Of a stretch of DNA of 21,698 nucleotides, positions 3,285 through 21,698 are shown one piece after another (position 1 is the stretch's first letter; each line of letters opens with the position of its first letter). The notes beneath the pieces were generated by a model. The model ran no database searches. It was given only the letters and a program-made list of their open reading frames with translations, and was not told the DNA's origin. Source of the stretch: a virus. The stretch covers positions 1-21,698 of the IMG/VR virus record IMGVR_UViG_3300012920_000328; one strand, 5' to 3'. Made by a program: the position numbers and the translations under genes.

Positions 3285-3470
3285 TTACCTTCTCTTGCTT
3301 CCGCAAGAGCCTGAAAAATTAGGCGGCATCCCTGAACCTGCTCCTTTACCTGAAGCAGTTACAGCAATACCAAAGGAGCCTCCGTGGCCCATTTTTTTAT
3401 AGGAACCTCCCATGTCCATTTTTTCATAGGAACCTCCCATACCCATTTTCTTTTTGTTGCCGTATTTCAT
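3285..3470 (-). CDS. 61-residue Gly/Lys/Met tandem-repeat protein
   Basis: This tiny basic protein consists of three near-identical 9-residue units, KKMGMGGSY, EKMDMGGSY and KKMGHGGSF, followed by a Gly/Ser-rich tail with one Cys that ends in SKRR. The coding DNA repeats with a 27-base period. No fold is expected from such a low-complexity sequence; the Lys residues and aromatic Y/F ends suggest binding to nucleic acid or capsid. It sits immediately after the major capsid gene and is flanked by a hairpin on each side, so it may be made in large amounts and be a minor virion component. Short Lys/Met/Gly motifs (KMKAGG) also appear in the 396-residue protein of the right arm, but homology is not shown. 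The regular repeat and the clean start and stop favour a real gene. Its function is unknown. Confidence 0.6.
   Translation of the reverse strand: MKYGNKKKMGMGGSYEKMDMGGSYKKMGHGGSFGIAVTASGKGAGSGMPPNFSGSCGSKRR
3374..3454 (-). repeat. Three 27-bp tandem repeats inside the 61-residue gene
   Basis: AGGA(G/A)CCTCC recurs at 3374, 3401 and 3428, exactly 27 bases apart. Each unit encodes one KxMxxGGSY/F repeat. The units differ by a few substitutions, so copy number could change by slippage or recombination. Confidence 0.85.
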
Positions 3471-3523: not shown

Positions 3524-5194
3524 TTAAAACTCGTTAGTTTCGAGTTTCTCAATCATTACGACTCGAGACTTGTCTGGAATCCATGCTGACATTGAAGACA
3601 TGCAGGTGAACTCTCTACCAGGCTGTGGTCGTGAGTATGTGAACCCTTGCTCAAATACTGGTCCGTTAGTAGAACCGTAAGAGAAATCAGGCACATTCTT
3701 AGGTTTAACAATGTAAAGGTTGCTAGTACCTTGAGAAGCATTGTCAATCTCAACACCTTTAGGTAATACACTTCTATCGAATACGTTAGAGTACATTGGG
3801 TCAGTAATATCCCACATAACCAAAGTCCAAGAACGCTTAGATAATCCAGCAGAGTATCCTCGGCTAATGTAATCTCCAAAGCTATCATAGTCAAGAGATG
3901 GGTCGTGCTCAACTCTTACCATACCGATTCCGTTTAGGAATGCCTCACCGATAGCGTATGATTGATACTGTAAGTTGTATCTGTCATTACCTGTCAAGAT
4001 TTTCACTGGAAGTGCTTCTTGGTCAACGTGCACAGGTACAGTGTTCTTGAACTCTTCTTTGAATAGCTCACGAACTAGATTGTGTGCGTTGAAACCAGCC
4101 TTGAAGACTAACTTTCTGTCGTGAATCTGAATAGAAGTACCGTGATAGATAATTTCAGCAGCTTTTTGAATGTACTGACGTAGCTCATTTACGTTCTTGT
4201 AGATGAATCTATGTCCTCTTCGAAGCTGGTGGTAAAGACCTTCGTTAACAATCTTAGAACCGTTGATTCCTGTGATTGTAGCACCTCGGTCAAACATCAT
4301 ACCCATTGCAGTAAGCTTCATCAACTCAGCCATTGCAAGAGCTTCCATGATAGGCTGAACTCGAACTGTGTCACGAAGAAGTCTTCCGCTGTTAGGGTTA
4401 ACTTGACCAACGAAGAAGTAATCTCCTCCTAAACGGTCTTGCATTTTCTGAATTCTTTCAGTTAAGAAAGATGCTTCTTTACCATTTACAGTAAGAACGT
4501 CTGCGTAAGCAGAGTATCCAACTTGTACTGCACGGTAGTCACCTAAAGTATACTGAAGCTTAACAGAGTTCTCAGAAAGACCCATGATGTTTGGTGCAGA
4601 GTATTGAGCATCAAACTCACCAGCAACGTGGTCAATTTTTACATACTCAGTACCAGGCTTCAATTTAGATGCTGGGAAGTACTTGCTTCTGTCTCTTGTT
4701 ACAAGTTGTACAGTGTGTACGTAACCATCACCTTCATCTACTACTTCTGAATCCTCAATAACGATTACTTGCTCACCATCTACTGGGTCGTAAGTAAGAA
4801 TGTCACCAGGAGAGAAGGGGTGAGATAATTTGATATCGAAGAATGAACCATCGATTCCTAAATAACTACCTTCTTCTACATTTTGTACTACGCATGGTTT
4901 TTCAATATCCATTGCGATTTCGTAGTCGAAGCTACCTCTAATACCATTTACAAAGATTTTATCTGAATTACGAAGAGCATCTTTGATAAAAGGTACATTA
5001 ACGGTTCGAGCATTCTCAAAAAGCTCTAACATACCTAGAGATGTTCTATCATCCACATAGTCAGAAGCTTTTAAGGCTACTGAATCAATGTAACCGAACT
5101 GGGACTGAATGTCACTTTTATTGGTAACACCAATCACAGTAGAGTCATTGAAGTTAGCTCCAATAAACTGTCCATTAAAATTTTCTTTTCCCAT
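3524..5194 (-). CDS. Probable major capsid protein
   Basis: This 556-residue protein lies downstream of TerL, portal and an acidic scaffold-like protein, which is the classic position for the major head protein. It lacks enzymatic motifs, membrane segments and a signal peptide, and it alternates beta-rich blocks (residues 60-200) with helices. The helix rich in Met/Ala/Leu near the middle (MEALAMAELMKLTAMG) and the long C-terminal beta region would fit an HK97-type fold, which I infer rather than see. A strong hairpin directly after the stop suggests high expression with partial termination, as expected for a capsid gene. No separate head protease is visible between portal and capsid. The start has no Shine-Dalgarno sequence, only A-rich sequence. 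Another abundant structural protein is possible but less likely. Confidence 0.78.
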   Translation of the reverse strand: MGKENFNGQFIGANFNDSTVIGVTNKSDIQSQFGYIDSVALKASDYVDDRTSLGMLELFENARTVNVPFIKDALRNSDKIFVNGIRGSFDYEIAMDIEKPCVVQNVEEGSYLGIDGSFFDIKLSHPFSPGDILTYDPVDGEQVIVIEDSEVVDEGDGYVHTVQLVTRDRSKYFPASKLKPGTEYVKIDHVAGEFDAQYSAPNIMGLSENSVKLQYTLGDYRAVQVGYSAYADVLTVNGKEASFLTERIQKMQDRLGGDYFFVGQVNPNSGRLLRDTVRVQPIMEALAMAELMKLTAMGMMFDRGATITGINGSKIVNEGLYHQLRRGHRFIYKNVNELRQYIQKAAEIIYHGTSIQIHDRKLVFKAGFNAHNLVRELFKEEFKNTVPVHVDQEALPVKILTGNDRYNLQYQSYAIGEAFLNGIGMVRVEHDPSLDYDSFGDYISRGYSAGLSKRSWTLVMWDITDPMYSNVFDRSVLPKGVEIDNASQGTSNLYIVKPKNVPDFSYGSTNGPVFEQGFTYSRPQPGREFTCMSSMSAWIPDKSRVVMIEKLETNEF

Positions 5195-5219: not shown

Positions 5220-6377
5220 TTATTTAATAAAAGGATTTTTAGTAGCCTTCTCTCGTGTTGGCTTAAACGAAAAATCTTTCTTTTCAGTAGGTGTCTTCTT
5301 TGCTTTTTTAATATCCATGAACACCTTCTTTTGTACTTCTTTTTGCTTGGATGCTGTTAAATTATTAACAAAACCCTCATAGTCAGTTAAAAAACTGTAG
5401 AGCAGTACGGCTCGCTGTGGGTCATTCCTAAAAGCTAAATAAGCTTCGTCAACTTCAGCTAATCCTGATTGCTCATTAAGATTGGTAAGACCTTTTACCA
5501 CTCTATTAGAAGCTCTACTATCAAAATTTGATGCCTTTAAAATAGATTTGATATCTTTCTTAAAATTATCAATAGCTTGATTTCTTTGCTGATTAGCTAT
5601 TTCTTGTTGCTGTAACATGTGCTGGTGTTGGCCAACAACATGATGTTGAATAGTTTCAAAGGCTGATTGAGCCTCTTCATCTAAATCCATATCCTTAGTA
5701 ATACGTTGAATATGTTTGTTAACCTTTTGGTCATCCCATCCTACAAAATTTTTGTAGTATGTGTAAACAGCATTAACTTTACCTTGGTCAGTACTAATGT
5801 CTAGATTGTTGATTCGGTCAACTGCAGTCTTAGATTGATAATACTGCTCTAAATCTCCACCTGATTGCTTAAAGGCTAAAAATTCTTTTTCTGCAGGACT
5901 AAATGAGGAGTAGATATTTTCTACTAATTTTTCTGACTTCCATGTGTCCTGTTGTTTTGATAACTGCTCAAAGACATCTTTGTCTATTTCTACGTCACCA
6001 CTATTCTCAAAGTCCTCCCAAAACCCAGACTCAATTAACTTTTTAGCTACATACCCATAATCAAATGAATCATCATCGGTCAGTAACGCCTCTTTAACGG
6101 CTTCTTGTGCCTGTTGGGTCTCCTTATCGCTTGATGGCGGTGCAGGAGAATCTTCAAAAGCAACTTCCCTATCTAAGATATCTTCTATTTCAATTTTACC
6201 TGAAGGAGTTGCTTCTGGGGGAGTAGAAGAGACTGGTTCGATAGGAGTCTCTTCCTTTGTTTCTGTTTGAGGCTCTTCCTGAGTTTCTTCCTCAGGTTGC
6301 TTAGTTTCTGTCGAGTCCTCAAATTCTATATTAAAAGGTTTTCCGATAGTAAATGGATTTTGGTTGGTATTGTCCAT
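5220..6377 (-). CDS. Acidic scaffold-like head assembly protein
   Basis: This 385-residue protein has a very acidic, Pro/Thr/Glu-rich N-terminal third (residues 18-110; several runs of E separated by T, P and Q) and a helical middle and C-terminal part with a Gln/His-rich coiled-coil segment (HHVVGQHQHMLQQQEIANQQRN, about residues 246-267). It ends in a Lys-rich tail. Low-complexity acidic sequence followed by coiled coil and a basic C-terminus, encoded between portal and major capsid protein, is typical of phage scaffolding proteins, whose basic C-terminus contacts the capsid. No serine protease motif is apparent. NPFTI near the start and NPFIK at the very end are a curious terminal echo. 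The assignment rests on composition and position. Confidence 0.65.
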   Translation of the reverse strand: MDNTNQNPFTIGKPFNIEFEDSTETKQPEEETQEEPQTETKEETPIEPVSSTPPEATPSGKIEIEDILDREVAFEDSPAPPSSDKETQQAQEAVKEALLTDDDSFDYGYVAKKLIESGFWEDFENSGDVEIDKDVFEQLSKQQDTWKSEKLVENIYSSFSPAEKEFLAFKQSGGDLEQYYQSKTAVDRINNLDISTDQGKVNAVYTYYKNFVGWDDQKVNKHIQRITKDMDLDEEAQSAFETIQHHVVGQHQHMLQQQEIANQQRNQAIDNFKKDIKSILKASNFDSRASNRVVKGLTNLNEQSGLAEVDEAYLAFRNDPQRAVLLYSFLTDYEGFVNNLTASKQKEVQKKVFMDIKKAKKTPTEKKDFSFKPTREKATKNPFIK

Positions 6378-6436: not shown

Positions 6437-6469
6437 AATTGTAATTCTCACATTACAAAAATTGTAATT
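6437..6469 (-). repeat. AATTGTAATT direct repeat and 7-bp hairpin between portal and scaffold genes
   Basis: The 10-mer AATTGTAATT occurs at 6437-6446 and again at 6460-6469. TTGTAAT (6439-6445) also pairs with ATTACAA (6452-6458) around a 6-base loop. Read leftward, the hairpin is followed within 10-20 bases by a run of seven T. This could be an AT-rich terminator after portal, a protein-binding site, or both. The 91-base gap that holds it is one of the longest in the left arm. Confidence 0.45.
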
Positions 6470-9177
6470 TATTTTTTATCGTACCGATTTTTGTTAGTTT
6501 GAGCGACTTGTAGCTGCTTATTTGCAACTTCCACTCTTGCGGCAGCCTCTTGAGATTTCACTTGATTAGCTTGTTGTTCTAACATAAATCTTCTGTCTGA
6601 ATCTAGTTGCCTTTGTCTTAAGTCAGAAGCGGCAACCCTCTCTTTATATTTTCTTTCTAAATCTTGAGTAGATGCCTTCAGCTGTTCTATTACTAAAGGA
6701 GTCTCATCTATTGTACCTTCTTCCGAAGGTTTAGCAAAACCTAAAGCTAGAATTGCTTGCTTATTAAGAGCTATCTCTCCTTTAACCTTTTCTAACTCAA
6801 TTTTGTTTTTGTGCTTCTGCTCTTCTTTAGCCATTTCACCTTGCTGTTGCATTTGCATCATTTGCATTTGCTGCTGTTGCTGCTGTTGCTCCATCAAGTC
6901 TTTTTGCTTTCTAGACAATCTAGCTAACTGTATAATTTTAGCTGTAGAGTCCGCTGACACAACTTCTGCCATGTCCTCTAAGTTTTTAGAGATAGTGTTG
7001 TCTCGCATATAAACTTCTTTTAGAAGTTCTAGCTCACTTCTTCTCTTGGTATTATTTCTAGTATAGATTTTAAATCTTCTCAATGGAAGGTCAGGGTCTA
7101 TAATAGATACAAACTGTCTAGTCAAATCACTGTCTGTGTAATTCACAGTAACATCTTTACCTTCATGTTGTAACCACTGTGCTATGTTAATTTGCATCTC
7201 AGCAGTTCTCTGTTGAAACCTAGAAAATTTATCGAACCAAACTTCTGTCTGTGCGTAAGACGATGTCTGAGATGTTCTAATACCTGTGGCTGTTTCTTGC
7301 TCTACAGGTACTGCCATTCGTTGTGGCGTAAATCCTAATTTCTCAAAAGCTCTCATTTTGATAGCTTGAGCAAAATTTAATTTACCCATCATGGCTGCAG
7401 TTAGGTCCATGTTAACCATTTGGAAGTTATTGAACGATGTTCCTCTAGCCTGAGAGGAATCAACAGGAAGGAATCCTAAGTTCCGAGTAACCTCCATTAA
7501 TTTTTCAATGGCTTCGTCTCCTCCAAAGTCTTTCAAGAATTCAGGCATGTAAGCTAAGTCCATAAGAAAGAATAGTCCAAGCTCCTTCGACATGTAGTCT
7601 CTTGCCATATTCATAGCAAGGGAATATTCTACTTGGTCTATCTCTACTCTAGAAACAAGAGACGTATGCTCTAACAATCCTGTAACTGGCATAAGAGTGT
7701 GGTACGTAGCACTCTCTCCTTTTAATTGATAATCAATAGCTCCTCCAAATAGGTAAAGGTGGTCAGGAAGGTCAGTATTTTCATTTAATATTTTAACCCC
7801 ATATCTAACTTCAGGAACATAGTCCCATACAATTGTATTATCTTGAGGATTCTTAGTGTGCTGGTCTAATGTAACTGTTCTTAGTTTCTTGATTTGAAAC
7901 TCATTGATAATGTCTTTTAACAATTCATCAGTTACGACTTCAGACCTAGAAGTTCCGTCTGGTTTAGTGTATGTTAGATATCCTACTCTTTTATAGGATA
8001 CCCAATATGCTTCTACGACTCTAATTAAGTCATATCGATTATCATTATCATTAAAGAAAAAATGCTGACCTCTTAGTTGGTTAGGAAACATGCCTCTGTA
8101 ACCCAGGTCAATACCTGTTTGGTCTTGGATAACTCCTAGGTTTTCATAACCAATAGAATCAGCAAATGGAACTCTTCGTAGAGTCCCTCCAAAGTTTTCT
8201 AACCAGTCTTGAGTATTATCAATACTTGCAGTTGAAAATTCTTTTCCTCTATAATGCTTAGAGCGTAATAAGTCTTGTTTTTGTACCTCTGTAAGATGTG
8301 AGCCAAAGTTGGCAACTACTTGGTTTGGTGTCAAGTATTGAATCCTTCCCACATACTCTCCTGTTTCAGGATACTTTTCGTCTTGTGTGATGGAAGTGAA
8401 GGTATTAAGTGGAGACCATCTCTCAGGTTGATAATAGTCGTGCCCTATTCTCCAATGTAAAAAACATCTCCCTGTAATTAGATAGTCCCTGAACAAGTCT
8501 CTATAGAGTTCGTCCATATCAAATCTAACCTCTCCTTCCTCTAATGTTTTTTCTGCCCACTCTAAGTATATTGGTTTCCACTCGGACTCCATATACTTTT
8601 TAACTTCTTGTGGTATGTTCTTGTCTCTCTCCTTCCGTAGAGTCTCTACGTATTGCTGCTGCTCTTCTTCGGACTTAAATTGTCTTTCATTGTAAAAGCC
8701 TTGACTTAATAACCTAATTTCTATCTCTTTAGAAATGGCATTATTTACTCCCTCCCAAAGTTTTGTTTTTTGATTTCTTAGATATTCATTTGTGGAGAGG
8801 GGGTCATCTGTGTAGACAACATTAGGATTAGGTTTAGTCAAGAACTCCCCAATCATTGTATTTACAATAGGCTCTATGAAGCCGTAGTGTTGTAGGTCTT
8901 CTGATAAATCAGACTGAGAACGAAGCATATCTACCTCCGACAAGAATGCAGAGGTGTTTACAACATCACTATATCTGTAGCTTCCCTCTACTATTCTGTA
9001 AGCATCCTCAAATCTTCTTCTAGCACTGTTTAATTGACGAATACCTATTGTTTCTAGAGTATTCATACAATCCATAACCCAATCCTTATTTTTCTTTTTT
9101 TCAGGAAGGGCTTGTGCAGGAAGTCTTAGAATGTCTCCAAAATATTGGGCATCTCTTAAATCTATATCAAAAAACAT
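6469..9177 (-). CDS. Portal protein with polyglutamine and coiled-coil C-terminus
   Basis: At 902 residues this is large for a portal but within the range of big phage portals such as those of T7-like relatives and crAss-like phages. It lies directly downstream of TerL and upstream of scaffold and capsid, the standard order. The body (residues 30-740) is helical with many aromatic and charged residues and a central beta-rich section. The C-terminus (about 763 onward) starts with a Gln/Met tract (a run of seven Q followed by QMQMMQMQQQ) and continues as a long charged coiled coil rich in K, E, Q and A. This C-terminal part is probably the barrel or a tail that projects into the capsid. A Bacteroidota-type promoter lies just upstream, so this gene may also be transcribed independently of TerL. 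Confidence 0.8.
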   Translation of the reverse strand: MFFDIDLRDAQYFGDILRLPAQALPEKKKNKDWVMDCMNTLETIGIRQLNSARRRFEDAYRIVEGSYRYSDVVNTSAFLSEVDMLRSQSDLSEDLQHYGFIEPIVNTMIGEFLTKPNPNVVYTDDPLSTNEYLRNQKTKLWEGVNNAISKEIEIRLLSQGFYNERQFKSEEEQQQYVETLRKERDKNIPQEVKKYMESEWKPIYLEWAEKTLEEGEVRFDMDELYRDLFRDYLITGRCFLHWRIGHDYYQPERWSPLNTFTSITQDEKYPETGEYVGRIQYLTPNQVVANFGSHLTEVQKQDLLRSKHYRGKEFSTASIDNTQDWLENFGGTLRRVPFADSIGYENLGVIQDQTGIDLGYRGMFPNQLRGQHFFFNDNDNRYDLIRVVEAYWVSYKRVGYLTYTKPDGTSRSEVVTDELLKDIINEFQIKKLRTVTLDQHTKNPQDNTIVWDYVPEVRYGVKILNENTDLPDHLYLFGGAIDYQLKGESATYHTLMPVTGLLEHTSLVSRVEIDQVEYSLAMNMARDYMSKELGLFFLMDLAYMPEFLKDFGGDEAIEKLMEVTRNLGFLPVDSSQARGTSFNNFQMVNMDLTAAMMGKLNFAQAIKMRAFEKLGFTPQRMAVPVEQETATGIRTSQTSSYAQTEVWFDKFSRFQQRTAEMQINIAQWLQHEGKDVTVNYTDSDLTRQFVSIIDPDLPLRRFKIYTRNNTKRRSELELLKEVYMRDNTISKNLEDMAEVVSADSTAKIIQLARLSRKQKDLMEQQQQQQQMQMMQMQQQGEMAKEEQKHKNKIELEKVKGEIALNKQAILALGFAKPSEEGTIDETPLVIEQLKASTQDLERKYKERVAASDLRQRQLDSDRRFMLEQQANQVKSQEAAARVEVANKQLQVAQTNKNRYDKK

Positions 9178-9236: not shown

Positions 9237-11387
9237 TTAGCTATACTTTTTATTTCTACCAAATTTGCCACTCGTTATTTTTCTGTAGACATCTCTCTTA
9301 ATCTCATACTTGTCTTCAGAACCTTTAATATTATTGATGGTTAGTTCTTCGTCCCAAATCAATGCGTGACCAAAAGACATAATACGGTCATAGTTCTTAT
9401 AGTTACCGAACTTAATTATCTCTTCAAGCAACATGGGGTCAGTTATTCTAGTCACACCAAGAACGCTTATCTCTTCTCCCTCAGGGCCCATGACACCAGT
9501 TGGTATTTGGTCCCAACAATAGTTTTTCAAAAGTTTCAACAAGTGTTCTTTGTTTCTAGCTGTGGCTGGTAGACCATAGTCTACATTCGCCCTACTGTTT
9601 TCATTGATTCGTAGATTAGTACCCTTTGCTTGTGCAATAAGATACTCAGACTTTTGACTTCTAAGATACTTTACAAAAGGTACGTCTGCCTCTGGTAGGC
9701 ATTCTGCATTATACAACTTTAACAACAACATCGCTTGTCTATAGTAATTTGAATCGATGTTAGGTCTTGAAGTGTATTGTGCTACAATTTGATTCTGCAA
9801 TCCTGATACCCCTGCTTGTCTTTTAAATATATACAAACAATTGAGAGAGTCTGAAGTTGTTGATGTAGATACTTTAGCACCGTCAAATCCTGCTATATAG
9901 GTACCTCTTTTTATTTGTCTTGGATTATCATATATAGGTCTTTCATAAATAACTACAGGAGCATTTACTGCTCCCCCTCGGAATGGGTATTCATTTACAG
10001 GGTCTGCTCCACTAGGAGTTACCGATATAATACCATTAGGCGTAACGTCAAGAGTTACGTACTCACCATATGTACCTTTGATGTTTATAGCATCTTGAGT
10101 TCTCTTGGCTTGTTCCACAGGGAACGGGTTATTACCAGAAAACAAGAAACAATCTTCTGGTTGGAAAGGGTAGTACATTTGTGCTTTCTTTCCTTTGTCT
10201 GGTGACTTAGCCTGTTCAGAACCTATAAAGCCCTGCACTTTGTCTAACGCCTCTTCCCAGTCAGTGACGAGAATATTGAACCCATCAAGTTCTTTAATTT
10301 GTTCTTCAGTGAAATCTCTGTTGAGATATTGTACCAAAGGTACTTCTTTCTTCTCTCCACCCTTGTTAGACATTTGGGCAGGAACAAAAAGACTAACTTC
10401 CTTATCAGTTTCTTGAACATATCTAAAGTGTTCTTCCTTGACTTCTTCTAAATATTGAGTCACATCAAAATGAAAAAAATCAGACTTCTCGGTGTAGAGA
10501 AAGTCCATCTCTGCATCTGCAGCAAAGTCTGTGTTACCACCCGTACCAATCAGCAACTCCACAAATCTTCTTTCACCAAGGTCGTTTTCAATAGCAGGTA
10601 GAAGTGCTGAACGTTGTTTGGAATAAAGATACTTTCCTACCTCATCCCATACAGCCTCAGTAGGTGTGATACCTGCTAAAAGCTCTTCCTTGGATGTAAC
10701 TTGCCCCTGCTGAAGGTTCCTAACGGATATCCTAGAGAAAGCAAAAGAGTTGTCATTCGGTTTATCAGCAATAGGGAAGAATTCATAACTGATAGGATTG
10801 ATTGGATTTCTACCCTTTGTTACTATTCTTTTGTTAAACTCTATTTCAACATCAGAAGATGTTGCTTTGTTCCAATCACTAATCTTAATGAAATCGGAAA
10901 AGCAATCAGGTCTTTTCTCGTAGAACTCATCTAAGTATTTAGTAATGTTGTTAAGGTCAGACTGCGACCCACCAATAATTAGCGGGTTACTATACTGAAA
11001 AATAAAAGTATTATAGGCGACTCGGGATGAAATAAAAGATGTCTTAGCGAATCGTCTTGTACCAAACGCAAGAATAGGTTTCTTACCTTCATCATTAGCC
11101 TTATTATAACACCAATTAATAAGCCATTCATTGTCTCTTAATTTAGGGTTACTAACTATCCTAACTGAATTACCAAATTCGTCCCTGGTATCAATAGATA
11201 GTTTAAAAAAATTCAGGTGCCAATACAACCAGCCTGAGATGTGTATACCTCCGACCATAACTCCTGACTTGCAATAGTTTATATGCTTTGTCCAAAAGGC
11301 TACATAATTAGCATCCTCCCTGGATGGTTCGACTTGATTTACTAAGAAATCTTTAAAAGATACATTTGGAATATCTACCTTACTCAC
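9237..11387 (-). CDS. terL: Terminase large subunit (TerL), ATPase and nuclease of DNA packaging
   Basis: This 716-residue protein has the layout of a phage TerL, which powers DNA entry through the portal and cuts the concatemer. A degenerate Walker A motif lies at residues 109-117 (GTRRFAKTS), a Walker B-like acidic pair at D248-E249 (EAVWDEVG), and a coupling-motif candidate at 278-286 (LLIGTGGNT). The C-terminal nuclease domain begins around residue 497 with YIAGFDGAK (D502 a metal-ligand candidate), and the N-x-DR-x3-GHAL region (about 665-676) resembles the end of TerL nuclease domains. The residue before the Walker A Lys is Ala rather than Gly, a deviation also tolerated in TerL proteins. 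The gene overlaps its upstream neighbour by 8 bases and precedes portal. Identification is firm by size, motifs and neighbours. Confidence 0.85.
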   Translation of the reverse strand: MSKVDIPNVSFKDFLVNQVEPSREDANYVAFWTKHINYCKSGVMVGGIHISGWLYWHLNFFKLSIDTRDEFGNSVRIVSNPKLRDNEWLINWCYNKANDEGKKPILAFGTRRFAKTSFISSRVAYNTFIFQYSNPLIIGGSQSDLNNITKYLDEFYEKRPDCFSDFIKISDWNKATSSDVEIEFNKRIVTKGRNPINPISYEFFPIADKPNDNSFAFSRISVRNLQQGQVTSKEELLAGITPTEAVWDEVGKYLYSKQRSALLPAIENDLGERRFVELLIGTGGNTDFAADAEMDFLYTEKSDFFHFDVTQYLEEVKEEHFRYVQETDKEVSLFVPAQMSNKGGEKKEVPLVQYLNRDFTEEQIKELDGFNILVTDWEEALDKVQGFIGSEQAKSPDKGKKAQMYYPFQPEDCFLFSGNNPFPVEQAKRTQDAINIKGTYGEYVTLDVTPNGIISVTPSGADPVNEYPFRGGAVNAPVVIYERPIYDNPRQIKRGTYIAGFDGAKVSTSTTSDSLNCLYIFKRQAGVSGLQNQIVAQYTSRPNIDSNYYRQAMLLLKLYNAECLPEADVPFVKYLRSQKSEYLIAQAKGTNLRINENSRANVDYGLPATARNKEHLLKLLKNYCWDQIPTGVMGPEGEEISVLGVTRITDPMLLEEIIKFGNYKNYDRIMSFGHALIWDEELTINNIKGSEDKYEIKRDVYRKITSGKFGRNKKYS

Positions 11388-13780: not shown

Positions 13781-14769
13781 TGGGTACTAAATTAGAAGAG
13801 GCTTTAAAAAGTCTCAATAAAAACTTTGGTTCAGGCTCAGTATTTCACTTAGGTGAAAATGAGGCTTTTGAAAAATTAGAAAGAATACCAACAGGGTCTT
13901 TAGGTTTAGATGTCATCACAGGTGGGGGTTACCCTCTAGGAAGAATAATTGAACTATTCGGATGGGAATCTTCAGGAAAAAGCACGTTATGTATACACGC
14001 AATAGCACAAGCTCAAGCAATGGGTAAGAAGTGTGCGTTTGTAGATATGGAGCATGCTTTTGATAAAAACTATGCAGAAGCATTGGGCGTTGACACCGAA
14101 GACCTTATATTCTGTCAACCAGGTAGTGGGGAGGAAGCAATTGAGATTACTAAAACACTAGCGAGTACTGGTGAAATAGGTCTCGTAGTTGTAGACTCAG
14201 TTGCTACTATGGTACCATCTGTCGAATCCGAAGGTGAAGCAGGTGAAAGCAAGATGGGTGTTCACGCAAGACTTATGTCACAAGCTATGCGTGTGTTGTC
14301 TCCTATTGCAAGTAAAAACAATTGTACTTTAATGTTTGTCAATCAACTCCGTCAAAAGATTGGAGTTATGTATGGTTCCCCAGATGTCACGACTGGTGGA
14401 AACGCTCTTAAATTTTATTCATCAATTCGCATTAAACTAACATCTAGTAAGTCTGCTGGCAACAAAGAAAAAGTTGACGGGGTAGACAAGCAGGTGTCTA
14501 ATCTAGTTACTGCAACTACTGAAAAAAATAAAACATATCCGCCATTGCAAAAGCATTCCTTTCAACTAAGATTTGGAATAGGAGTAGATGCAAAAGAAGA
14601 GATTGTAGATATGGCTATCTCTCTAGGTCTAATAGACAAGAAAGGTGCTTGGTACAGCTATGAAGGCACACAGCTTGGTCAAGGTAAAAAAGCAGTATTT
14701 GCCTTACTTGAAGATAATCCTGACCTTGAAGAAACCCTCAAAGAACAAATAATTAAACATTATAACTAA
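13780..14769 (+). CDS. recA: RecA/UvsX-family recombinase
   Basis: This 329-residue protein is a clear RecA, an ATP-dependent strand-exchange filament protein used in phage recombination and repair. Walker A is GWESSGKST (residues 61-69; Trp replaces the usual Pro), the catalytic Glu is E91 in DMEHAFD, and Walker B is LVVVDS (135-140). The DNA-binding loops are conserved: L1 around residues 151-165 (EGEAGESKMGVHARLM) and L2 around 189-215 (QLRQKIGVMYGSPDVTTGGNALKF). It is of near-bacterial type rather than the divergent UvsX type, but it is shorter than cellular RecA because it lacks the acidic C-terminal extension. It starts one base inside the previous stop and ends one base inside the next start, so it is part of a coupled operon with PhoH. 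Acquisition from a bacterial host is plausible. Confidence 0.95.
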   Translation: MGTKLEEALKSLNKNFGSGSVFHLGENEAFEKLERIPTGSLGLDVITGGGYPLGRIIELFGWESSGKSTLCIHAIAQAQAMGKKCAFVDMEHAFDKNYAEALGVDTEDLIFCQPGSGEEAIEITKTLASTGEIGLVVVDSVATMVPSVESEGEAGESKMGVHARLMSQAMRVLSPIASKNNCTLMFVNQLRQKIGVMYGSPDVTTGGNALKFYSSIRIKLTSSKSAGNKEKVDGVDKQVSNLVTATTEKNKTYPPLQKHSFQLRFGIGVDAKEEIVDMAISLGLIDKKGAWYSYEGTQLGQGKKAVFALLEDNPDLEETLKEQIIKHYN

Positions 14770-15443
14770 TGAGAGAGGATTTAAGTACTAGAAGAACAAA
14801 AACCAACCCTTCTTTTAAGTACGAATTGAGTGAAGAACAAAAGCTTGCAAAAGAAAAAATTCTTGACTCTAAGATTGCTATTATAACTGGTAAGGCAGGT
14901 ACGTCTAAAACGTTCTTAGCCTCACAGATAGCCTTAGATTTGTTTTTGAAGGGAGGAGTAGAAAGAATGTATATAGCCCGCCCACAGGTTTCTACAGAGG
15001 ACATGGGGTACCTTCCAGGAAATAAAGATGAGAAGATGAGGCAGTGGTGTGCTCCTGTTATAGAAAACATGGAGATACTACGAGAGAATGGCAAGAAAGA
15101 AGTAGAAAAATGGCTAAAAGAAGGTCAATTAGAACTGCTTCCACTACAATTCGCAAGAGGACGAACAATTACTAACAGCATAATGATAATAGACGAGGCA
15201 CAGAATCTTACTAAGCTTCAAACATATTTATTTTGTACAAGACTTGGAAAAGGTTCTCTTATGATATTTACAGGAGACCTTAAACAAAACGATTTAAAGC
15301 AGCCTAGTAGAAGTGGTTTCCACCAACTAATCGAGACTGCAGGTAAGTTAGATGAGATGATACATGTGGAGTTACAACAAAATTACAGAGACCCTATTGT
15401 TGCTAAATTTATGGAACAATATGAAAAAATTTGTGGCTGGTAA
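14769..15443 (+). CDS. phoH: PhoH-like P-loop ATPase
   Basis: This 224-residue protein carries Walker A GKAGTSKT (residues 41-48) and Walker B IMIIDEAQN (138-146). In between are the PhoH hallmarks, IARPQVSTEDMGYLPG (69-84) and a Gln/Asn-rich sensor stretch TGDLKQNDLKQPSRSG, and a late ELQQNYRDP. PhoH is a predicted RNA helicase-like ATPase, frequent in marine phages; its exact role in phage is not settled. Here it sits between recA and a nuclease and is coupled by overlapping stop and start codons on both sides (TAATG). The short N-terminal extension and standard length fit the phage version, which lacks the PIN domain of some bacterial forms. Confidence 0.9.
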   Translation: MREDLSTRRTKTNPSFKYELSEEQKLAKEKILDSKIAIITGKAGTSKTFLASQIALDLFLKGGVERMYIARPQVSTEDMGYLPGNKDEKMRQWCAPVIENMEILRENGKKEVEKWLKEGQLELLPLQFARGRTITNSIMIIDEAQNLTKLQTYLFCTRLGKGSLMIFTGDLKQNDLKQPSRSGFHQLIETAGKLDEMIHVELQQNYRDPIVAKFMEQYEKICGW

Positions 15444-18710: not shown

Positions 18711-18726
18711 AAAACGAGAAATAATG
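18711..18726 (+). promoter_or_regulatory. Translation leader AAAACGAGAAATAATG (copy 1)
   Basis: This 16-mer ends in the ATG of the triplicated-module gene and matches 15 of 16 positions of the leader at 20018-20033. Neither holds a standard Shine-Dalgarno sequence. It may be a phage-preferred translation start. Confidence 0.4.
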
Positions 18727-19428
18727 CCTAGTTACGATATATCGATTAAAAAAGAAAACCTAGTCAAGCATGGATGTGCTGTACCTGCAGGGTACGTAAG
18801 ATTAAGCTCAGTGATAGCAAGATTACCTGTACATGATAGCGATGCAAAAGCAAGAGAAGCAGGACTAAAAGACTGCGACATGTACTCAAATACTAATCAA
18901 AATACCATTGGTATTGTAGGTTCAGGAGGTGCAGGAGGTACAAGTGTACCTGATAGAGACTTCACAAATGCTCTTGACATTGCTTTTCCGCAAGAAGAAG
19001 TTATAAAGTATGGTTGCCAAATACCAAATGGTTATGTAAGGTTTACATCTGTTTACGGAAGTTTACCTATATATGCTAATTCAGCAACTGCTGCAGGTGA
19101 CGGACTTAAAAAATGCGACCCTTTTCTTTTGGAAGGTAGCGGAGACTTAGCTTTATTAGTTGCAGACTTTGCACCAGCTGGTGGGGGTGCGGTAGAAAAG
19201 AAAGTACCTTACTTTGATATTGCAATTAAAAAAGAGCAAATTCTATATAGGAACTGCAATCTTCCAAAAGGGTACATAAAACTTAGCCAAGTACTAGCTT
19301 CGTTCCCTGTTTACACAAAAGAACAAGCTGAGGCTGTCTTGCCTGAATGTGCAGGATATCTTCGTAAGAATTCAGTCGGTAAAATTACTGCAGCTAATGT
19401 TTCTTTTGTAAGAAAGGCTACAACTTAA
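18724..19428 (+). CDS. Triplicated 80-residue-period module protein, possible virion protein
   Basis: This 234-residue protein is built from three related modules of about 50 residues: residues 4-54, 84-134 and 164-212. Each reads D-I-x-I/F, then a helix with K/E, G/N-C, P-x-G-Y-V/I, a serine-rich strand, L/F-P-V/I, and a second Cys. The first Cys of each module falls at residues 18, 98 and 178, exactly 80 apart, and the second at 51, 131 and 209. Gly/Ala-rich linkers separate the modules. Regular Cys pairs suggest a disulfide or metal site per module. A tail fibre, decoration or host-binding role is possible, but nothing proves it. It starts after a conserved leader shared with the 396-residue gene. 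Confidence 0.7.
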   Translation: MPSYDISIKKENLVKHGCAVPAGYVRLSSVIARLPVHDSDAKAREAGLKDCDMYSNTNQNTIGIVGSGGAGGTSVPDRDFTNALDIAFPQEEVIKYGCQIPNGYVRFTSVYGSLPIYANSATAAGDGLKKCDPFLLEGSGDLALLVADFAPAGGGAVEKKVPYFDIAIKKEQILYRNCNLPKGYIKLSQVLASFPVYTKEQAEAVLPECAGYLRKNSVGKITAANVSFVRKATT

Positions 19429-19430
19429 TC

Positions 19431-19730
19431 ATGCCGAGGAAAAAGAAAGACCCTAAAGTAGGGACTGGCAAGAAGCCCAAAGGTTCTGGTAGAAGGCTTT
19501 ATACGGATGAGAATCCAAAAGATACTGTTCGTATAAAGTTTGCTACGCAGAAGGATGCTAGAGACACAGTGAAGAAAGTGAAAGATGGTAAAAAACCTTT
19601 CGCAAGAAAAATCCAAATCTTAACCGTAGGGGAGCAGAGAGCAAAGGTAATGGGTAAAGCCAAAGTAGCTGAAATATTTAAGAAAGGGAAGAACGCAGTA
19701 AGAAGAAAACACGGTAAACCTACAAAATGA
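19431..19730 (+). CDS. Small highly basic protein, possible DNA-binding
   Basis: This 99-residue protein is very rich in Lys and Arg, starting MPRKKKDPKVGTGKKPKGSGRR, with a short central segment (YTDENPKDTVRIKFA) and a helical basic remainder. Sequences with a GTGKKPKGSGRRLYTDENP-like core are familiar from marine phages and may form a named family (possibly DUF5872), but I cannot confirm this. Strong charge and small size suggest nucleic acid binding or virion-internal packaging. It lies 2 bases after the triplicated-module gene and overlaps the next start (ATGA). Confidence 0.65.
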   Translation: MPRKKKDPKVGTGKKPKGSGRRLYTDENPKDTVRIKFATQKDARDTVKKVKDGKKPFARKIQILTVGEQRAKVMGKAKVAEIFKKGKNAVRRKHGKPTK

Positions 19731-20019: not shown

Positions 20020-20033
20020 AACTAGAAATAATG
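20018..20033 (+). promoter_or_regulatory. Translation leader AAAACTAGAAATAATG (copy 2)
   Basis: This is the second copy of the 16-mer found before the triplicated-module gene, with one substitution, ending in the ATG of the 396-residue gene. Confidence 0.4.
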
Positions 20034-21221
20034 GGATTTAGAAAAAGAGAATCAAACCAAGAAGGTTTTGGTATCCAAAGAAACGAAAAAATGAAAGCAG
20101 GAGGCTCAATGCCTAAGAAACCTAGAAAAAAAGCTAAGAAAAAGCCTGTAGTTAAACAGCAGGGGATGAAGAAAAGGAAAATGAAAAAAAATATTAGAGA
20201 AGACTTATTTGCAGGTCTACAATCAGGTAAGTACAAATTAGACAATTTAACTCCTGAACAATTGGCTTTTGTTTTCAACAATAGGAGAGCAGCTAAAATT
20301 CTTGAAGCGGCAGCTGGTGCACAAGACATTGTGATGACTAATCAGCAAGACCAAGGCCAAATAGCTACAGGAGGTGATGCAGTAGCCACAGGAGGTGATG
20401 CAAATGCAAGTGCAGAAGCAAGTCCTAACATAAATGTAACTGCAAAACCTGTTACGGTTGTAGATACAAGTATGGGGGTTAATGTGCCTATTGATATACA
20501 AGGACTTCAAAGAGGAGCCGTTACGGATACTCCAGAAGGTCAAATGATTGTGGACCCTCTTACTGGTGTCCTTATGCCTTTTCCTATAACTACCCCTGGT
20601 TTTGAAATACTACCTCCTGGCGATGGAGTGATGCAAGGACCTAGAACGGAAAATGGATTTTATGATGAATATGGACAGCCTCAAATAATCAATGATAGGA
20701 TAATAGAAATGTTACCAGACGGTACTAGTGTTGCTGTGGACCCTATAACTGGCGAACGTATACCTATTCAAAGGCGTGGTGAAGGAGGAATAATGTATCA
20801 AGGATTGGTAATGGATAAGCGAACTGGTTTTATGTTAGACAATACTAGAGGAATAGCCATGGACCCTAACACTGGACGGATGATGCATTTTGACCCTAGT
20901 GTAGGGTTTACTCAAGGTATGTTTGCAGATGGAGGAAAGAAAGGTATGGTCGTTCCTTCCTTGGAAGCAGATGATAGCAGAAGAGTAACTACAGAAGAAG
21001 GTGAGTTTATTGTTAGTAGTGACGGTAAATTTATACCTATTAAAAATCGAGGTCGAGTAGGAACGAGGCCTCAAGGTAGTCTTGGAGATGGTGGAATGAA
21101 GTATCAAGGAAGCATATTCACTGAGATTACTAAAGGCGATGAAGAAAAGATGAAAGCAGGTGGTACTAAGAAGAAGAGGCGAGTAATGAATAAGAAAAAA
21201 TCTAATAGATATGGCTACTAA
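20031..21221 (+). CDS. Tagged, DPxTG-repeat protein, possible virion protein
   Basis: This 396-residue protein has four zones. Residues 1-55 are very basic and begin with the signature SNQEGFGIQRN (8-18) and KMKAGG (20-25). Residues 55-100 form a helical domain (IREDLFAGLQSGKYKL, QLAFVFNNRRAAKILEAAAGAQ). Residues 109-130 are a Gly/Ala repeat (ATGGDAVATGGDANA). Residues 170-340 carry four D-x-x-TG motifs (VDPLTG 174-179, VDPITG 236-241, MDKRTG 261-266, MDPNTG 277-282) and two GG-x-x-YQG motifs (252-258, 354-360). The end is again KMKAGG followed by a basic tail. The repeats suggest a beta-rich structural part. The signature recurs in the next larger gene to the right. A virion or DNA-associated role is likely but not shown. 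Confidence 0.65.
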   Translation: MGFRKRESNQEGFGIQRNEKMKAGGSMPKKPRKKAKKKPVVKQQGMKKRKMKKNIREDLFAGLQSGKYKLDNLTPEQLAFVFNNRRAAKILEAAAGAQDIVMTNQQDQGQIATGGDAVATGGDANASAEASPNINVTAKPVTVVDTSMGVNVPIDIQGLQRGAVTDTPEGQMIVDPLTGVLMPFPITTPGFEILPPGDGVMQGPRTENGFYDEYGQPQIINDRIIEMLPDGTSVAVDPITGERIPIQRRGEGGIMYQGLVMDKRTGFMLDNTRGIAMDPNTGRMMHFDPSVGFTQGMFADGGKKGMVVPSLEADDSRRVTTEEGEFIVSSDGKFIPIKNRGRVGTRPQGSLGDGGMKYQGSIFTEITKGDEEKMKAGGTKKKRRVMNKKKSNRYGY

Positions 21222-21381
21222 TAAAAAAAGAGTTCCAGCACCCAAGGGGTTTCACTGGATGAAGGAAAGAGGAGGTTCACTAAAATTAATGAAAGACCCT
21301 TCGACTGGATATAAAAAGCATCCTGGTTCGTCCAAGTATGCTGAGTTTGGAATACAGAAAGTACATAAAAAGAAAAAGTAA
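21211..21381 (+). CDS. 56-residue basic protein with PKGFHWMK motif
   Basis: This small Lys-rich protein begins MATNKKRVPAPKGFHWMKER and continues GGSLKLMKDPSTGYKKHPGSS before AEFGIQKVHKKKK. A proline-Gly-Phe-His-Trp start and a basic body with aromatic anchors suggest binding to nucleic acid or capsid; similar short proteins are familiar from marine phages. The EFGIQK near the C-terminus weakly echoes the EGFGIQR in the 396-residue protein. It starts 11 bases inside the previous gene and its stop overlaps the next start (TAATG). Confidence 0.55.
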   Translation: MATNKKRVPAPKGFHWMKERGGSLKLMKDPSTGYKKHPGSSKYAEFGIQKVHKKKK

Positions 21382-21698
21382 TGAAAAAGTCACCATTTAG
21401 AAATTCAAGCTCTAATCAAGAAGGGTTTGGTATTGAACGTAATAATAAAAGAAAGTCTTCTAAGAAAAAAGCTACCAAGCGTAAAAAGCCTGTTGCTAAG
21501 AAGCAAGGTACATCGATTGCTAAAAAAACGGCAGGCAAAGATTTAATTGTACAAAATTTTGGAGATGATGTATTTTCAGGTACTTTTAGAATTGTAAACC
21601 CAGATGGTGGCTTTGCAAATAAAGCAGGTGAAAGAGTGACATATCAAGTTAACCCTGATGGTAGCTACACGCAGATAATCTCAACAGATGCTTATTAC
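21381..21698 (+). CDS. Second protein with the SNQEGFGI-x-RN tag, cut by right edge
   Basis: The frame begins at the ATG at 21381, overlapping the previous stop, and stays open to the right edge (106 residues visible). The N-terminus reads MKKSPFRNSSSNQEGFGIER, then a Lys/Arg-rich tract (KRKSSKKKATKRKKPVAKK). The visible rest looks beta-rich (DDVFSGTFRIVNPDGG, ERVTYQVNPDGSY) with two V-N-P-D-G repeats. It shares the N-terminal tag and basic tract with the 396-residue protein, so both may be targeted to the same place. The C-terminus and true length are unknown. Confidence 0.6.
   Translation, partial: MKKSPFRNSSSNQEGFGIERNNKRKSSKKKATKRKKPVAKKQGTSIAKKTAGKDLIVQNFGDDVFSGTFRIVNPDGGFANKAGERVTYQVNPDGSYTQIISTDAYY

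Follow-up and report, generated by a model that had tools for sequence, protein, structure and literature searches.

A conserved terminal peptide on small lysine-rich proteins of a crAss-like phage genus resembles the ends of the putative scaffolding protein

Many otherwise unrelated lysine-rich proteins of a crAss-like phage genus carry a short peptide that resembles both ends of the phage's putative scaffolding protein, and this peptide may thus be a label for packing inside the shell. That the peptide is a conserved terminal motif for targeting or docking is very probable. The complete mechanism, in which the tag mimics the scaffold and thereby brings its carriers into the procapsid, is put forward tentatively, at a little under an even chance.

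Two tagged genes and their leaders

The window, which is the whole stretch of DNA analysed, is a 21.7-kb virus record. Terminase, portal, a 385-aa protein and the major capsid protein (MCP) form a crAss-like head module on its minus strand, and its plus-strand part ends with both tagged genes (Table 1). The presence of MCP, portal and ring proteins (CrAss_Ring_1 in the relative G013) indicates crAss-like membership; because the MCP score for Crass_capsid falls under the curated cut-off, the lineage is a distant one. Scans of IMG/VR with the terminase large subunit and MCP recovered ~15 contigs that belong to the genus, with an MCP identity of 91% or more wherever this protein is present, and, beyond the genus, two outgroups (MCP 66% and 56%) and ~30 distant crAss-like phages.

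Table 1. Features of the window discussed in the text
Feature	Position	Strand	Remark
Terminase large subunit	9237..11387	-	
Portal protein	6469..9177	-	
Putative scaffolding protein, 385 aa	5220..6377	-	between portal and MCP genes
Scaffold N-terminal motif NPFTIGKPFNIEF, residues 7-19	6321..6359	-	
Scaffold C-terminal motif KNPFIK, last six residues	5223..5240	-	
Major capsid protein, crAss-like	3524..5194	-	
61-aa basic protein directly 3' of MCP	3285..3470	-	diverged position-equivalent of relatives' tagged MCP-adjacent proteins
99-aa Lys-rich accessory protein without tag	19431..19730	+	84% identical copy in second, unrelated phage group
Tagged protein 1, 396 aa, leader residues 1-45	20031..21221	+	
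Tag core SNQEGFGIQRN, protein 1 residues 8-18	20052..20084	+	
56-aa basic protein between the two tagged genes, ends AEFGIQKVHKKKK	21211..21381	+	
Tagged protein 2, runs off window end, leader residues 1-43	21381..21698	+	227 aa in contig L064
Mini-motif A SPFR, protein 2 residues 4-7	21390..21401	+	
Tag core SNQEGFGIERN, protein 2 residues 11-21, includes mini-motif B GFGIE	21411..21443	+	

An earlier note on this DNA had pointed to an N-terminal tag shared by the two open reading frames at the window's end. Both do carry SNQEGFGI[QE]RN, with FR before the core and a Lys-rich tract after it. The longest run common to the two 30-residue N-termini is 8 residues, and no run exceeded 6 in 4000 shuffles. 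The shared block is longer than had been described: it extends over ~43-45 residues, past the K-rich part to KKxVxK[KQ]QG. A third tagged gene (281 aa) is present in two of three close contigs, the third contig stopping short of that gene.

It is the peptide and not the DNA that is conserved, as the note had also proposed: 6 of 10 conserved residues are written with different codons. Over the 11-residue motif, proteins 1 and 2 differ with a pS of 0.92 and a pN of 0.08; in comparisons with the third paralog, the values are 0.90-1.08 (pS) and 0.04 (pN). The synonymous sites of the paralogs are saturated and amino-acid changes are rare, and the peptide has therefore been held by purifying selection. 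The bodies behind the leaders are unlike each other, again as first described, with no significant BLASTP match once the leader is removed (E at least 0.04; ~1 for the window pair). In protein 1, the leader is 87-96% identical at the amino-acid level between the window and its relatives, as compared to 48-54% for the body. The AF2 model of this protein is of low confidence and mostly disordered.

The 56-aa protein encoded between the tagged genes probably carries no tag of its own, as judged from its relatives. At least 588 IMG/VR stretches encode a member of its family (P.PKGFHWMK...KLMKxPxxGYKxHxGxSxxAxFx[IV]QKxHKK), and the window's copy matches no Pfam or PHROG family. The C-terminal FGIQ of this protein was considered as a tag and dropped, as Fx[IV]QKxHKK is found family-wide.

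Two further features of the neighbourhood were observed. The low-complexity pieces ATGGxAxATGG and DGG[MY]KYQG recur in the bodies of tagged proteins (window 20031-21221; L013:17973-18392). A 234-aa protein beside the tagged array (window 18724-19428) has PAGYVRLS in common with a structural-module gene of G005 (14221-15057), making it, from this stretch of sequence, a possible virion paralog.

Mini-motifs at either terminus across the genus

Across the genus, the tag is composed of two mini-motifs: A, [KR][SA]PF; and B, GFG[IV][QE]. These occur in either order and at either terminus on ~12 small basic proteins, the genes of which lie beside the MCP gene or within a fast-changing accessory array. 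Farther members of the genus are without SNQEGFGI and encode small basic proteins of the same layout (MRKSPFKMQDADASGMGIQ, MRKKAPFTSQYADGSGMGVQ, MAKKSPFTNPKGDGIHGI and MRSPFSNPQGDGTHGIS), and a profile made from the leaders retrieved a C-terminal version, TSPFANPMDQHGHGVQRGSKRR. In most members, the basic protein directly 3' of MCP ends in FG[IV]Q(N)xGRSPFS, GFGIQNPSQSNFSCGG, KKSPFK or GFGVQEMGGKKSPFRG. Within one family of 104-114 aa, the end KYKDGGxxFG[IV]QxGRSPFS hardly varies, in contrast to a drifting middle. The window's own 61-aa protein at this position has SFGI...PPNFSG, as compared to GFGIQNPSQSNFS in L006.

Motif counts were made on a pool of 388 proteins from six genus contigs and, as the pool includes homologs, are descriptive. 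Matches to the B-type pattern [FMH]G[IV][QE] are terminal in 15 cases and interior in 3, and permutations of its letters are terminal 0-1 times. The pattern [NS]PF is terminal 28 times and interior 21 times for an expected terminal fraction of 0.17, with permutations terminal in from 2/25 to 11/28 of matches. In G005 (92 kb), the putative scaffold has two terminal [NS]PF, small basic proteins flanking MCP have three, and there are no others.

The tag is restricted to the genus. A scan of IMG/VR for the exact tag found only chance or unrelated matches outside it. For the pattern M[KR]K[ST]PF...GxGI (15 contigs), the other matches were a repeated 33-aa peptide and unrelated frames. Among named phages, protein 1 has no match, and no tags were found in phi17:2 or csAssE. 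The 33-aa peptide is near-identical (MRKSPFELKKGGVVKMRGGGIIARDRLKPTKII) in six contigs outside the genus: L080, L082, L084, L085, L086 and L090.

Could the leader simply be an ancient N-terminal piece of a single growing family of basic proteins, inherited without any targeting partner? Proteins 1, 2 and 3 align over the ~43-45 residues of the block and their genes are near-adjacent, as simple paralogy would have it. However, both the order of the mini-motifs and the end that carries them vary, and the bodies include DUF5824 as well as unrelated proteins. DUF5824 sits behind the leader in one tagged protein; its homologs in pelagiphage HTVC026P and cyanophage MED4-184 are without such a leader. 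In addition, the leader of protein 1 is far more constrained than its body (pN 0.02-0.07 versus 0.30-0.34). Paralogy alone is thus an improbable account. The earlier note had named two findings that would speak against a tag: a single homologous domain, and random positions in unrelated proteins. The first did not appear, as bodies differ and untagged DUF5824 exists elsewhere; nor did the second, as the B motif is terminal in 15/18 matches in the genus pool.

The note had also proposed checking whether the tag always sits at the N-terminus. It does in the window pair; in relatives, C-terminal versions occur as well, namely GRSPFS, KKSPFK, KKSPFRG and SPFANPMDQHGHGVQRGSKRR. The position bears on whether the tag is a propeptide removed by a head-maturation protease. 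In the window pair it is N-terminal, short and conserved, as in the internal proteins of T4, yet where GRSPFS and KKSPFK form the extreme C-terminus, cleavage would take away next to nothing. Six related contigs, which are possibly incomplete, gave no Peptidase_S78 or S77 homolog, and a protease of another type is possible. We regard a propeptide as very improbable, and the maturation protease suggested in the note found no support.

Resemblance to the ends of the putative scaffold

The 385-aa protein is a putative scaffold on three grounds: the position of its gene; its predicted fold; and the absence of its homolog from a list of annotated structural proteins. The AF2 model (32 homologs) has disordered segments at residues 1-83 and 364-377 and an all-helical core at 84-360. 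This fold is common to phi17:2 R9ZYN6, phi14:2, Flavobacterium phage Fpv3 and gut crAss-like phages, and a Foldseek search of the PDB gave no significant match for the model. The homolog phi17:2 gp067 has the same gene position, between portal and MCP, and the same predicted fold. It is annotated as hypothetical and is not among the proteins annotated as structural in that phage, unlike its neighbours MCP and portal. It also differs in lacking NPF at its ends, and phi17:2 is without tagged small proteins.

In the window, the putative scaffold starts MDNTNQNPFTIGKPFNIEFED and ends KNPFIK. The consensus ends in the genus are KNPFTIGxPF[TN]I[QE] and [KR]NPF[ITL], and [KQ]NPFTIG at the N-terminal end and [KR]NPF at the C-terminal end are common to all members. 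By shuffling, the chance of [NS]PF at both ends of the scaffold is ~2e-6 to 7e-6. The scaffold of the outgroup G016 has NPFANP at the start and SPFT at the end; in distant crAss-like phages, an NPF-type motif was found at neither end. As the outgroups are without tagged small proteins beside MCP, the scaffold motif may be the older of the two. More widely, the N- and C-terminal tails of scaffold-position genes are often alike, as if the scaffold were bivalent (KNPFT/KNPFT; IKVKDLG/LKVRSVG; IGPVDD/VAPVDD; L097-L143, L236, L239, L091 and L094).

The resemblance of tag to scaffold was assessed by a blind ranking, in which the score of each protein was that of its closest ungapped alignment with the scaffold ends. 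Tagged proteins lie nearer to these ends than untagged proteins (p=2e-5) and than untagged small basic proteins (p=6e-4), p-values that are optimistic because they pool homologous genomes. A tagged protein ranks 1st in G005, G010 and G015, 2nd in G008 and 8th-9th in G012. The window's own two tags rank 11-12 of 29, a weak resemblance, and the tagged protein of G013 ranks 47 of 85. The match spans 3-6 residues only; the leader HMM misses the scaffold, and the scaffold-end HMMs miss the leaders. When scaffold-like ends were sought in phi17:2 and csAssE, no protein stood out.

The main alternative partner is the portal or neck: the tag would dock to the portal/neck or tail barrel in place of the capsid shell, small proteins would be loaded at the ejection vertex, and the scaffold ends, the C-terminus of ring protein 1 and the small proteins would all bind the portal region. 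The sequence GFGTFQNPNPFRF also closes ring protein 1, so that the partner could be neck or portal rather than MCP. Within the genus, the ring protein 1 homologs end GFGT[FM]QNPNP[FY]RF (genes L059:17091-18047, L053:3740-4696 and L069:6324-7277), close to the small-protein form GFGIQNPSQSNF. In crAss001, the portal-end ring is R1, and both capsid and tail store cargo (PMC10172136). However, the ring protein 1 of an outgroup ends NPNSF, without GFG, and several tagged genes adjoin MCP whereas none was seen adjoining ring protein 1. Docking at the portal is accordingly unlikely, while still the strongest of the competing accounts.

A second phage group, G027-G031, offers a comparison. It has accessory genes up to 91% identical to those of this genus, including the 99-aa and 56-aa basic proteins. 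The exchanged genes are untagged only, and no tagged protein is common to both groups. The head module of the second group is different, and the scaffolds of the two groups have no BLAST match. Its small proteins carry a recurring terminal motif, seen in KLPMRDRAIDVLGVVEPQST, KTPFRDRAVNTLKIVEPEST and IPFKNSAIDKIAG and, at the C-terminus, in FSFKNTAIQKLND and AMRNAAIDKLIYRYEP; its scaffolds start IKVKDLGVVEEKSS and IRVKDIGVSQEKS. The generalised motif [FMVLI][KR][DNS]x[AGD][IV], which was widened to admit the scaffold and partly chosen by viewing it, is terminal in 8/11 matches, and the terminal ones are all array proteins or scaffold. The second group has a terminal tag of its own, and a partial match of this tag to the group's own, non-homologous scaffold, weaker than in the first group, is suggestive. 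The form [PSA][FM][RK][DN]xA[IV][DN] was noted on small array proteins (L161, L163, L164 and L236-L242), with a loosely similar scaffold N-terminus. The 5-mer LGVVE, exact in scaffold and leader of G028, was set aside as not rare by itself among all pairs.

The same exchange bears on another possible role of the tag: contact with nucleic acid or a host factor, jointly with the Lys tract and apart from head assembly. The Lys-rich tract does follow the tag directly, and one tagged 90-aa protein (L008:18723-18995) weakly resembles fusellovirus VP2 (Pfam Fusello_VP2_Capsid, 22.7 bits, under the 27-bit cut-off). The tag core itself has few charges, however, and Lys-rich proteins in the same array move freely between phage groups without any tag. 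Such a role for the tag is improbable, to about the same degree as simple paralogy.

A docking model and its meaning

Taken together, these data favour a model in which small Lys-rich accessory proteins dock onto the head-assembly machinery through a terminal short linear motif. The tag would copy the docking ends of the scaffolding protein, with [SA]PF and/or GFG[IV][QE] at one terminus. Tagged proteins would ride into the procapsid via the binding site of the scaffold on MCP (or portal); the Lys-rich tract, by binding DNA, would keep them inside with it; and they would be delivered with the DNA, as the internal proteins of T4 are by their capsid-targeting sequence (CTS). Of the three roles suggested in the earlier note (sorting, packaging and processing), packaging is the best supported: the motif is found at either terminus of ~12 basic proteins; genes in relatives adjoin MCP; and the tags resemble scaffold ends. 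Among the points against the docking model is that, in the window, the tagged genes and the structural genes are on different strands.

The cargo-loading peptides of encapsulins are terminal short linear motifs of the cargo. The tag is like them in being terminal and in its proposed docking to an HK97-fold shell. It is unlike them in its motif and in its setting, a phage procapsid with a scaffold. In T4, internal proteins are diverse and only the CTS is conserved; the CTS directs them into the scaffolding core, and their lysines contact DNA (PMC3012670). Here too, a short conserved terminal peptide is carried by fast-changing, otherwise diverse proteins. In contrast to the CTS, the tag stands at the N- or C-terminus and resembles the ends of the phage's own scaffold, and its role in packaging is proposed from that resemblance. 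The CTS is also removed by a gp21-type (S77) prohead protease; in the six related contigs, which may be incomplete, no known prohead protease was found. In crAss001, gp45, gp46 and the virion RNA polymerase are stored in the virion and ejected (PMC10172136). These are large conserved proteins that are not known to bear such a tag, and the tagged proteins match no crAss cargo family.

A broader reading is possible, though less likely than the mechanism itself. Lineages of Bacteroidota-type phages may each have their own docking motif at the scaffold ends, and captured accessory genes that gain this motif would become internal virion proteins, the motif serving as a lineage-specific zip code for procapsid cargo.

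Outside T4, little is known of how tailed phages choose small internal proteins for packaging, and most small Lys-rich phage proteins lack annotation. If the model is true, a comparison of terminal motifs with scaffold ends would reveal from sequence what cargo uncultured phages carry, and many hypothetical proteins could be placed inside the virion. It would also provide a short and portable peptide for the loading of HK97-fold procapsids.
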